A DNA stretch of 34,407 nt, taken from the IMG/VR virus record IMGVR_UViG_3300031576_000209, positions 1 through 34,407 of that record; one strand, 5' to 3'. A program made the translations under genes and the position numbers. The notes under the pieces were generated by a model. It saw only the letters and a program-made list of their open reading frames with translations. It had not been told where the DNA came from and made no database searches. Shown here in pieces: positions 3,416-10,889 of the stretch. Positions within the stretch are counted from its first letter, which is position 1. Each line of letters starts with the position of its first letter. The DNA is from a virus.

Positions 3416-3443
3416 ACTATATCCCGTACAGACACGGTGTCAA
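3416..3443 (-). promoter_or_regulatory. Sigma70-type promoter P3408
   Basis: On the minus strand a perfect TTGACA (3438-3443) is followed after 16 bases by TATAGT (3416-3421). Seven bases then separate the -10 box from an ATG at 3406-3408, so transcription would begin at or beside that ATG. It should drive the leftward zinc-ribbon, annealing-protein and nuclease unit. The segment TGTGTTGACAC at its -35 also occurs in P6237. Confidence 0.7.
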
Positions 3444-5389: not shown

Positions 5390-6237
5390 TCCCGCGCCTC
5401 GCGCGGCAGATTGGCGAGCTGCGAGGCGGTCAGGTACCCTGAGCCCTGACACGCGGGGCAGTCAGCCACGCCATAGCCTTCCTTGGCCACGTCGCAGTAC
5501 CCGCAGTCCCCGGCCGGCATGGAGGCCCGGATCTCGCCCCCCGCGGCCCGGACCATGCCCCGGAGCCGCTGCCACTGGACGCCCGACCACCCGTGATCGG
5601 GCTCGGCGGTGGTCAGCTTGCCGAGCGCGGCCGAGAGCTGAGCCGCTGCCTCGCTCAACACGCGGCCCAAGGCGGCCCGTTTGGCGTCGTAGTCGGCCCG
5701 TGGGTCCACCTTGGGCTCCTCGGCCTCTCCTGGCGCATCCTGTGCGGCCTCGGCGCGCTTGATGGCACGCTTGACGGTGGACTCCGAGATGCCGGCGGCC
5801 TTAGCTACCGCGAGCAGTGCCGCCGCCTTTGACGCGCCACGGCCGACATTTGTCGGTGTCGCTGGCTTTGACGCGGCGTCCGGTGCAAATGACCCTTTCG
5901 GTCGTGGCGCCAACGCGGCGACAGCCTCCGCGATCTCGGCGTCTGAGAGGCTGCGACGGCGGGCGTTCTCGGCGAGGGCGAGCGACGCCGCCTCGTCGTC
6001 GGTGCACTCGATCACGTCGGCGCGGATGGCGCTGCGCTTGGTGAGCTTGTGGGCGGCGACGCAGTGGAGGCCGTAGAGGACGCGGCGGTCCGGGGTCACG
6101 CCGATGGGCGGGAGAGCGGAGCCACGCTCTAACTCGTCCACGAGGCCATCGAGCACGGCCTGGTCGAGGTGCTTGTCCCAGCCTCCAGGGAGCTTGAGCG
6201 AGGTGATCTTGACAACACTGGTCACGCGGTGGTGCAT
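5386..6237 (-). CDS. ParB-like nuclease-domain protein with HTH and C-terminal zinc ribbon
   Basis: The 283-residue protein begins with a ParB/Srx-type domain (residues ~10-95: LPPIGVTPDRRVLYG, then ECTDDEAASLALAEN). A helix-turn-helix-like segment follows (AKAAGISESTVKRAIKRAE, ~146-163), then a C-terminal zinc ribbon with Cys245/Cys248 (CGYC) and Cys260/Cys263 (CPACQGSG, DnaJ-like). In chromosomal ParB the box after 'YG' has a conserved arginine used for CTP binding; here it reads GLHCVAAHK, so that arginine is absent. It probably binds phage DNA and may recruit the helicase encoded next, whose start overlaps its stop. The ATG lies six bases after a -10-like box with no separate ribosome-binding site, so the mRNA may be leaderless. 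Confidence 0.8.
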   Translation of the reverse strand: MHHRVTSVVKITSLKLPGGWDKHLDQAVLDGLVDELERGSALPPIGVTPDRRVLYGLHCVAAHKLTKRSAIRADVIECTDDEAASLALAENARRRSLSDAEIAEAVAALAPRPKGSFAPDAASKPATPTNVGRGASKAAALLAVAKAAGISESTVKRAIKRAEAAQDAPGEAEEPKVDPRADYDAKRAALGRVLSEAAAQLSAALGKLTTAEPDHGWSGVQWQRLRGMVRAAGGEIRASMPAGDCGYCDVAKEGYGVADCPACQGSGYLTASQLANLPREARE

Positions 6238-6243
6238 GCTGGC

Positions 6244-6272
6244 ACCCTATTCCTGCACAGTCAGAGTGTCAA
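6244..6272 (-). promoter_or_regulatory. Sigma70-type promoter P6237, apparently leaderless
   Basis: On the minus strand TTGACA (6267-6272) is followed after 17 bases by TAGGGT (6244-6249) and then, six bases later, by the ATG of the ParB-like gene. The distance from TTGACA to the ATG is 29 bases, the same as between P3408 and the ATG at 3408, and both share TGTGTTGACAC at the -35. The -10 is a weak match apart from its TA---T frame. Confidence 0.55.
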
Positions 6273-6309
6273 CACAATTATGGTGGCAACGCGGACCCGT
6301 CCTAATTTC

Positions 6310-6967
6310 TTCTTCGGCTCAGAAGGGGAACGCTGAGATCGGTATGGTCCGGGACTGTCCCGGATCCGGGGGCTAACCCAGAAGGTGGCTCGTACGCCTT
6401 CCCCACTGCCGACAGCCGAGCACCGGGCACCGGGTACCATGCTGCGGTTGCGCCGCAGCTTTCACCGGGAGGGCCCTCGGGTTTGCGCGCCTGCTACGAC
6501 GCCCAACGGCCCACGGGTGGGAGCCGAGGCTGCGGCGGCTACTCATGCCGCACATCGCGGTGGCTGGACAGGCTGCTTGCCGTGCACGAGAGAAAGCGTC
6601 CAGGACCTTGCACCCGTGTGAGGGGATGAGCGGGTCTTGGACCAACGCGCCTTGCCCGGTCATCCGGTTTGCGGGGCGCATGGGGTTAGCGAAAGAGCGT
6701 GCACGTTTCGGCAGGTCGCGCTGTCGGTACTCCGTCACCATCCCCTGCGCGGGGTCCGTAGACGGTGCCCACGCCTTGGGCCCAACGGCATCGGCGTGTT
6801 GAGGCTCCGATGGCGACGAGCTTGACAGAGCGCGAGCTATGTCGGACGCTGTTCCCATCGGTCTCCTAGCAGAGCCGATATTCAAGCCCAGGAGCTATCC
6901 AGTCAACAAAAAAAGTTGCGGACGCGCCTAGCAAGAGCCCCGGTGGTGTTCCCCTCGGGGCTTTTGT
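6310..6967 (+). ncRNA. Candidate large structured non-coding RNA (~0.65 kb)
   Basis: No reading frame here looks like a protein, but the strand is packed with complementary segments. Examples: 6346-6354 with 6358-6366 (loop CTG); 6441-6447 with 6453-6459 (loop TTGCG); 6598-6607 with 6633-6642 (10 bp); 6742-6745 with 6751-6754; 6770-6775 with 6793-6798; 6807-6813 with 6855-6861, extended by 6801-6803 with 6863-6865. The 6346 and 6598 helices each contain a G-U pair that would be A-C in the other strand, which favours the plus strand. The region ends in a plus-strand terminator. Size and phage location recall the ROOL and GOLLD RNA classes, but I cannot assign a family. I see no convincing promoter, and the 5' boundary is approximate. 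Confidence 0.6.
6935..6966 (+). terminator. Intrinsic terminator, plus strand
   Basis: AGCCCCG (6936-6942) pairs with CGGGGCT (6956-6962), extendable by one G-U pair, around a 13-base loop, and is followed by TTTTGT. It would end a rightward transcript such as the candidate ncRNA. On the minus strand the same stem is followed by TCTTGC, so it works poorly there. Its T-run ends next to the stop codon of the leftward gene at 6968. Confidence 0.75.
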
Positions 6968-7309
6968 CTATCTGGGGTGGCTCCGCTTCCACTCGCGCAC
7001 CTTCCGGTGGAGGTCGGTGGCGCCTTGGCGGCGGGCTTCTGTCGAGGCCGAGCCGCCGCCCCACGTAGCACAGGCGCGCCCGGACGCTTTGGTCCTGATC
7101 TCGGATGGCGGAGTCAACGTTCCGGCGATGGCGGCGATCTGTTCTGGCGACAGCCGTCGGACGGTGGCCTTCGCGGCCTTCCTGGCCTTTCTCGCGGCGT
7201 GTTTCTTGTGACACTCCCAGCACTGGTGGTACCGCAGCTCCTTTGGCCGCCCACACCGGCATGTCTCGGGGTGGTCGGCGCGGTGGATGAGGGCGTCGAA
7301 CAGGCCCAT
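6968..7309 (-). CDS. Small basic zinc-finger protein
   Basis: A 113-residue, strongly basic protein. Near the N-terminus it has Cys17/Cys19 (TCRCG) and Cys30/Cys33 (QCWECHKKH), a compact zinc-binding site, followed by a lysine/arginine/alanine helix (AARKARKAAKATVRR) and the segment LSPEQIAAIAGTL, resembling a short helix-turn-helix or recruitment helix. It could bind DNA or RNA. The start at 7309 overlaps the HNH stop (ATGA); a GTG nine bases upstream is the alternative. It is the last gene of the P9835 unit, facing the ncRNA candidate tail to tail. No family is recognised. Confidence 0.6.
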   Translation of the reverse strand: MGLFDALIHRADHPETCRCGRPKELRYHQCWECHKKHAARKARKAAKATVRRLSPEQIAAIAGTLTPPSEIRTKASGRACATWGGGSASTEARRQGATDLHRKVREWKRSHPR

Positions 7310-7590
7310 CAGAACCACTCGGCGCGGGGTCGCTCGTAGTCAGCCCGGAGCTTGGCGGCCGTGTCCTCGGCCCAAGCGCGGCGGTCGTCGCGTGTCCACC
7401 GGCGGAACGGGTCGCCGCCGTCGTGCCAGGCGGCATGGTGCTGGCGGCAGAGTGGGAGGGCTGTGTGGTCGTGGGCCTTCTGGCCCAGGCCTCGGCGGCC
7501 GGCGTGGTGGGCGTCCGATGGGTAGGCGGCGCAGATGAGGCAGGGGCGGTGGCGGAGCCAGACGAGGTAGTCCGGGTCTTCGCCGGCCAC
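7309..7590 (-). CDS. HNH-type nuclease (Ref/DUF968-like)
   Basis: A 93-residue protein matching a compact HNH family found in phages: Cys17/Cys20 in PCLICAAYPSDAHH, conserved histidines 28-29, and Cys48 with His51-His52 in LPLCRQHHAAWH, then a helix rich in Trp, Arg and Asp. This is the layout of Ref-type (recombination enhancement) and DUF968 nucleases, with a structural zinc and a single catalytic HNH site. It likely nicks or cuts DNA during recombination or replication. The start is a GTG at 7590 with GAGGTGA seven bases upstream, immediately after the previous gene's stop; the longer ATG frame is unconvincing. Confidence 0.75.
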   Translation of the reverse strand: MAGEDPDYLVWLRHRPCLICAAYPSDAHHAGRRGLGQKAHDHTALPLCRQHHAAWHDGGDPFRRWTRDDRRAWAEDTAAKLRADYERPRAEWF

Positions 7591-7594
7591 AGAG

Positions 7595-7789
7595 TCACCT
7601 CGGGCAGATCCAGAGCCAGCGGCAGGTATCGGAGTCGAACCGGTCCTCGCAATGGCAGACGACGTAGCCGTTGGTGCAGCCGAGGGGGCGGAGCGGCTTG
7701 AGTTTGATCGCGCACTGGCCCGCCAGTGGCCGCGAGTCATCCCAGGTGGCGGCCACGAACAGGAGGGCGAGGAGAGCGGTGAGCTTCAT
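7595..7789 (-). CDS. Small exported Cys-rich protein of unknown function
   Basis: The 64-residue product begins with a classic signal sequence (MKLTALLALLFVAAT) and continues with six cysteines (AGQC, LGCTNG, VCHCED, DTCRW, WICP) that could form disulfides outside the cytoplasm. Early phage genes of this sort may act in the envelope, for instance in superinfection exclusion, but nothing in the sequence proves that. No good ribosome-binding site is visible. It lies between two nuclease genes in the P9835 unit. A tRNA-like TTCGA match on this strand falls inside the gene and is taken as chance. Confidence 0.5.
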   Translation of the reverse strand: MKLTALLALLFVAATWDDSRPLAGQCAIKLKPLRPLGCTNGYVVCHCEDRFDSDTCRWLWICPR

Positions 7790-9960: not shown

Positions 9961-10551
9961 GTGCCCGGCTACGTCACGGCACGGGAGCTGTCCCGCGCGC
10001 TCGCGCTCACCGTCGGCGCAACACGCGGCCTGCTGCAACGCGGCGAGATAGCCGGCGCGGTGCGTCTACTGGACCGAACGCGCACGGCCGAGGATGCGCG
10101 GCTCGGCGACCTGACCGGCACCGACCGAACCGCCCGCGGCCCCGGCCGGTGGCGGATCCCCGTGCCGGGCATAGAGGCGTGGCTCGCCGCGCAGGCCGGC
10201 GCTCCAGTCCCGGCCGGCACGCTGCGTGGGCTCGCCGACCTGGCGCGCCGCCGCGCCCGCAACGACGCGCGCCTTGCCGCCGCGGCGGCGCGCCCTCCCG
10301 CCACCGCCGCCGCCAGGGCGGCGCCGCAGTCGCCCAGGTCAGTGGGGGGAGGGCCAGTAGGTGAAGGGAAAGGTGCAGATGTACCCCCCGCCTCGGAGGT
10401 ATTGAGCCGGCAGACCTACGACGCATCACAGCATCCTGTGATGCCTCACGACTCACATGTATTGAGCGGTGGATCCCCTGCCGCAGCGCGCGACGCGTCT
10501 ATGCCTGTGCGGACATGGACGGAGTGGTGGTCTGAGGGGAGGGGGAAGTGA
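9961..10551 (+). CDS. Excisionase/MerR-type helix-turn-helix protein (putative regulator)
   Basis: The 196-residue protein begins at a GTG. Residues ~1-80 look like an excisionase-type winged helix-turn-helix: GYVTARELSRALALTVGATR, then LLQRGEIAGAVRL, and the wing-like GRWRIPVPGIEAWLAAQ. The rest is an Arg/Ala helix followed by a low-complexity Ser/Pro/Gly tail ending RTWTEWWSEGRGK. It is the first rightward gene, divergent from the early unit, a classic position for a switch regulator. Alternatively it could be a packaging-related DNA-binding protein, since it precedes the terminase region. An inverted repeat flanked by direct repeats lies within its 3' part. The stop overlaps the next ATG (TGATG). 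Confidence 0.65.
   Translation: MPGYVTARELSRALALTVGATRGLLQRGEIAGAVRLLDRTRTAEDARLGDLTGTDRTARGPGRWRIPVPGIEAWLAAQAGAPVPAGTLRGLADLARRRARNDARLAAAAARPPATAAARAAPQSPRSVGGGPVGEGKGADVPPASEVLSRQTYDASQHPVMPHDSHVLSGGSPAAARDASMPVRTWTEWWSEGRGK
10399..10467. repeat. Perfect hairpin flanked by symmetrical direct repeats
   Basis: GCATCACAG (10423-10431), loop CATC, CTGTGATGC (10436-10444) form a perfect nine-base inverted repeat. The nine-base GTATTGAGC occurs on each side (10399-10407 and 10459-10467), 15 and 14 bases from the hairpin. No T-run follows, so it is not an intrinsic terminator. It lies inside the 3' part of the regulator gene and may be a binding site, for example an operator or packaging site. 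Confidence 0.55.
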
Positions 10552-10889
10552 TGGGGGTGCGTGGGCAGAAGGTAGCGTTGTTGGCGAGGAGGAGGGAGGA
10601 GGTAGTGGAGGGGATGAGGGAGTTGGTGGAGGGTGGGGCGATGGATGCGGCTGGGTTAGGTGATGGGGAGGTGCCGCTTGGATGGGAGGAGAAGCGGGTG
10701 AGGGTCGCGCAGGACATGAGGAAGCCGAGGTCGAGGGCGCCTGTGTGGATAGAGGTGATGCAGAGGGCTGTGGAGGGGCACGACCGGGTGCAGGCGGAGC
10801 GAACTGGGAGGGACGTGCTGCTCAGCATTGGGAGCGTGAACGTGGTGGTGGGCCCGGAGTATCCGAAGCTCGTATTGGAGAAGAAGTGA
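10551..10889 (+). CDS. Unknown protein, candidate small terminase subunit
   Basis: The 112-residue product is mostly helical: a basic N-terminal helix (QKVALLARRREEVVEGMREL), a segment with EVPLGWEEKRVRVAQDM, a further helix (APVWIEVMQRAVEGHDRVQ) and a beta-strand end (VLLSIGSVNVVVG). Position, three genes before the large terminase, and size would suit a small terminase subunit that recognises phage DNA, but I see no firm signature. Codon use is striking: AGG for arginine and GGG for glycine dominate and the coding strand is nearly all purine, unlike the later structural genes. Start and stop each overlap neighbours (TGATG). Confidence 0.5.
   Translation: MGVRGQKVALLARRREEVVEGMRELVEGGAMDAAGLGDGEVPLGWEEKRVRVAQDMRKPRSRAPVWIEVMQRAVEGHDRVQAERTGRDVLLSIGSVNVVVGPEYPKLVLEKK

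Follow-up and report, generated by a model that had tools for sequence, protein, structure and literature searches.

Few large phage RNAs are known. ROOL and GOLLD, often encoded near tRNA islands, were recently shown to form RNA-only cages of unknown function; the solved ROOL example has 659 nt, and many GOLLD members exceed 800 nt (PMC12286853). The locus described here belongs to IMGVR_UViG_3300031576_000209, a virus record in IMG/VR of 34,407 bases, possibly a fragment, which was analysed over its whole length (the window; GC content about 68%). An earlier note had proposed a large structured plus-strand RNA at 6280-6967, perhaps ROOL or GOLLD, perhaps a new class. A structured plus-strand RNA is the best-supported reading of the region, owing to the absence of genes, the folding and the terminator, but an identity with ROOL or GOLLD is not supported. 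In Rfam 15 no family reaches its gathering score, and with E relaxed to 10 just two or three meaningless fragments fall on the region. Run singly at E up to 10, the ROOL model (RF03087, 574 positions) gave no match, the 14 control genomes containing no ROOL, and the GOLLD model (RF02032, conserved region, 416 positions) gave none in the record. No tRNA or tmRNA gene is found in the window, the record of which may be a fragment.

The early genes form a leftward block (about 1.9-9.7 kb) and the structural genes (terminase, portal, capsid) a rightward one. A ParB-like gene, read leftward, adjoins the region on the left. Judged by its proteins, the phage is isolated: searches found no relative of the ParB-like protein, one relative of the terminase (31-34% identity), and capsid relatives of 35% identity at best, and the helicase has six relatives in viral contigs (41-49% identity) and none in GTDB genomes. 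In the nearest helicase relatives, L179 and L180, there is no gap of comparable kind beside the helicase; the region is thus no constant component of the helicase replication module, and this weakens the case for an RNA. At the start of the predicted helicase of L179 (3850-5727), IETTPTVAQVSHGHPLRPYQQEAVDSVM is duplicated exactly, which may be an artefact of the assembly. On the other side, the candidate RNA is adjoined by a minus-strand gene (6968-7318). Its product, basic and 116 aa in length, carries four cysteines in a motif (CRCGRPK...CWECHKKH) that may be a zinc ribbon; no PHROG family, Pfam family or phage relative was found for it. Farther along, the minus-strand gene 8280-8792 matches the PHROG families of both phage DNA polymerase processivity factors and RusA-like resolvases and, weakly, the Pfam family of the DNA polymerase III beta clamp; its product may be a sliding clamp.

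The earlier description of about 0.65 kb with no convincing gene was borne out. A codon score trained on genes of the phage itself and applied to all six frames shows no coding signal in 6240-6967, every frame being negative at about 6200-6950. No low-coding stretch of the window is longer than 6121-7140, which overlaps the weakly coding gene 6968-7318. Another longish stretch of low coding score, 10171-10860, lies between the early and structural blocks. The ORFs inside the region have no PHROG match and its two largest no Pfam family; against the phage records one of these two has no match and the other a marginal one (E 0.08). The lack of a coding signal in six frames and of any protein family favours a non-coding RNA. 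That the region is an unrecognised or decayed protein gene is very improbable. The 170-aa ORF 6373-6885 on the minus strand does have a minus-strand gene on either side and an open length of 513 bases, but it starts with TTG, scores -0.11 in codon usage against roughly 0.2-0.4 for most confident genes, has a GC3 of only 0.71 and has no Pfam, PHROG or phage match that was counted; GC-rich DNA yields such ORFs by chance.

The candidate RNA and its domains, as predicted from the fold of one sequence, are as follows:

6288..6967, plus strand: candidate non-coding structured RNA of about 680 nt (no coding signal, plus-strand z of -2.4 to -2.8)
6283..6497, plus strand: domain I, closed by 6290-6299/6478-6487 (10 bp)
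6501..6789, plus strand: domain II, closed by 6508-6521/6768-6782
6567..6725, plus strand: core of domain II, described as stable in the predicted fold
6790..6879, plus strand: domain III, a long interrupted hairpin in the predicted fold

Fold energies were compared with those of dinucleotide shuffles. The plus strand of 6280-6967 reaches -331 kcal/mol, the shuffles on average -311 (z -2.8, 0 of 20 shuffles as good). When the terminator is left out, the z score is -2.4 for the plus strand (none of 40 shuffles as good) and -1.2 for the minus strand (6 of 40). In a control that took in 44 of the 52 windows of equal length, the z score of the region is the lowest among the 44 on the plus strand and the second among the 88 over both strands, the lower one belonging to a coding window on the minus strand. 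This folding of the plus strand, better than 40 of 40 shuffles and than the minus strand and first of 44 windows, argues for an RNA. In windows of 150 nt the region is unexceptional, thus much of the folding signal lies in longer-range pairing. The z scores of the domains for the plus and minus strand, respectively, are -2.4 and -0.8 (I), -2.1 and -1.0 (II), and -2.9 and -2.5 (III), and the plus-strand core of domain II has -3.0 (0 of 60 shuffles), all favoured by selection, since the domain limits were taken from the predicted fold. The RNase P RNA of an actinobacterial genome of 68% GC has, by the same method, a z score of -4.7. The region falls well short of this value, so the effect suggested by the folding is only moderate, although above chance. 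The case for an RNA is weakened by this shortfall, and also by the structural entropy of the whole region, which is no lower than in shuffles.

The helices named in the earlier note are present in the predicted fold. The one placed at 6598-6607/6633-6642 is found as 6598-6608/6632-6642 (11 bp, probability 0.89, two G-U pairs), and 6346-6354/6358-6366 has 9 bp with one G-U pair (mean pair probability 0.85). Helix 6807-6813/6855-6861 (7 bp, 0.97) continues past an internal loop with the pairs 6802-6804/6865-6867 and goes on further to 6790-6795/6874-6879. The G-U pairs had been read as a sign of the strand; they exist, but any predicted plus-strand fold uses them and by themselves they do not reveal the strand, for which the comparison of plus- and minus-strand folding offers the better evidence. 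The core of domain II contains a symmetric internal loop (7x7) made up of purines only, 6589-6595 (AGAGAAA) / 6691-6697 (GAAAGAG), in which tandem G-A pairs may form. The helix that closes domain I has a pair probability of only 0.45, a further weakness of the RNA interpretation. A linker joins domain III to the terminator. An 8-bp pairing, 6372-6379/6683-6690, was dropped as compatible with chance.

The 3' end of the candidate is formed by one further element:

6931..6967 (6931-6943/6955-6967), plus strand: intrinsic terminator, 13-bp stem, TTTT in the 3' arm (pair probability 0.95)

The terminator claimed in the earlier note is the strongest hairpin-plus-TTTT signal on either strand: among the TTTT sites of both strands, the one at 6962 (plus strand) has the most stable preceding hairpin (-22.5 kcal/mol). 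It points rightwards, and to the left of it the analysis identified no gene read in this direction, which favours a stand-alone transcript. The hairpin abuts the stop codon (6970-6968) of the leftward gene 6968-7318, hence its use in both directions is possible. The main rival, a serious one even if we think it somewhat less probable than not, starts from this position directly after the stop codon: the region would be an ordinary spacer, the hairpin 6931-6967 would end the leftward operon, perhaps as a two-way terminator, and the GC-rich DNA would fold by its composition. The moderate z score, the unremarkable short windows and the one minus-strand coding window of lower z fit this explanation. 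On the other hand, the T run belongs to the plus strand, and on the minus strand the stem is followed by CTCTTGCT only, not by a good T run; a spacer of 700 bases is costly for a compact phage genome; and all shuffles are exceeded by the plus strand, not by the minus strand.

Upstream, three putative promoters are of relevance:

6244..6272, minus strand: promoter of the ParB-like gene, TTGACA-17-TAGGGT, start on ATG 6237
3416..3443, minus strand: second leftward promoter, start on ATG 3408
6254..6281, plus strand: weak promoter-like site, TGCACA-16-AATTAT, predicted start about 6288

The two leftward promoters have a common consensus, TTGACAC..TG.CTGT.C.GGA and after it a -10 box TA...T, with 2 matches in the window and 2 matches in 0 of 100 shuffles, the pattern being derived from the same two sites. 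Together with the starts on an ATG in both cases, this suggests that they drive co-regulated leaderless early mRNAs. Leaderless starts are common in Actinobacteria, which makes an actinobacterial host plausible. Since the promoter at 6272-6244 would start transcription on the ATG of the ParB-like gene, the region is not a leader of this gene, and this again favours a separate RNA. The rightward site 6254-6281 ranks 18th among 68,734 positions of both strands in a sigma-70 weight scan. The predicted start lies two bases 5' of the first long helix; the position of the site directly before this helix supports an RNA, and its low strength, below that of the ParB-gene promoter, detracts from it.

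The adjacent ParB-like gene also raises the possibility, which we consider improbable, of a DNA element, either an origin of replication or a site at which the ParB-like protein acts in partition. The minimum of the cumulative GC skew at 5740 and a perfect 17-base inverted repeat at 6348-6364 (TCCGGGACTGTCCCGGA, one occurrence in the window) are in line with it, and the repeat, as DNA, could be a protein-binding site. However, a search found no iterons, the repeat is not found a second time even with up to 3 mismatches allowed, the lowest-GC 60-mers show no AT-rich stretch, and DNA sites explain neither the strand difference in folding nor the terminator.

The collection of homologues called for in the earlier note yielded none. 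Neither blastn against 72,556 plasmid records and 50,697 phage records (the latter at E 0.01 and 10) nor a DNA search in a sample of about 900 bacterial genomes found a homologue; records closely similar to the window were possibly excluded from the searched sets, and such empty results, having no positive control, show little. Four pattern scans of IMG/VR (the purine internal loop, TGGGGTTAGCGAAAGA, the CCCAACGGC pair and AGCCGATATTCAAGCCC) and one of GTDB genomes (the purine loop) gave no homologue either, with numbers of matches close to the estimated chance; the best inspected matches lie in coding genes or align no better than shuffled sequence. A single-sequence covariance model of 6567-6725, run on phage loci and on a sample of 794 genomes from two phyla, gave nothing convincing, and one of 6789-6880, run on phage loci, gave no match. 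An 18.9-bit covariance-model match in L182 (E 0.035) was taken as chance, and three short matches to one 3' segment in capsid-relative phages were rejected, as they lie inside protein genes. That no homologue was found, and hence no covariation to back the predicted helices, weakens the argument for an RNA; the lack of any visible conservation also suits an ordinary spacer.

In general, we see about an even chance that the region encodes a structured RNA of about 680 nt that is specific to the phage and transcribed independently. A stand-alone non-coding RNA would then have a gene of its own in the phage. Its transcription would start near 6288 and run rightwards, divergent from the leaderless ParB-helicase transcript, as far as the strong intrinsic terminator, which lies where the converging operon, read leftwards, has its 3' end. 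The RNA would fold into three domains and most likely work in trans during infection as a stable folded molecule, alone or protein-bound, much as is proposed for ROOL and GOLLD. That it stands for a new class among the large structured RNAs encoded by phages, with no relation to these two, transcribed from its own promoter during infection and functioning as a folded RNA or a ribonucleoprotein, is doubtful, and we put it forward only tentatively. If true, another independent class would help to show whether large phage RNAs solve a common infection problem. As a single sequence with no relatives, it is a candidate for testing and not yet a basis for further work.

With respect to known systems, the candidate, as a large RNA near an HNH gene (7309-7740), recalls HEARO and the IscB-type guide RNAs, but this gene encodes a 143-aa DUF968-type phage HNH protein, not IscB or IsrB, and no Rfam match links the RNA to them. 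It differs from GOLLD in the absence of a model match and of a tRNA nearby, and is shorter than the many members above 800 nt; both would be large structured phage-encoded RNAs of unknown function, the structure of the candidate being predicted. From ROOL it is set apart by the missing model match and tRNA island, by its high GC content and by being known from one sequence only. At the same time, it resembles ROOL as a large phage-encoded non-coding RNA of similar length, with a multi-domain and complex, albeit predicted, fold.
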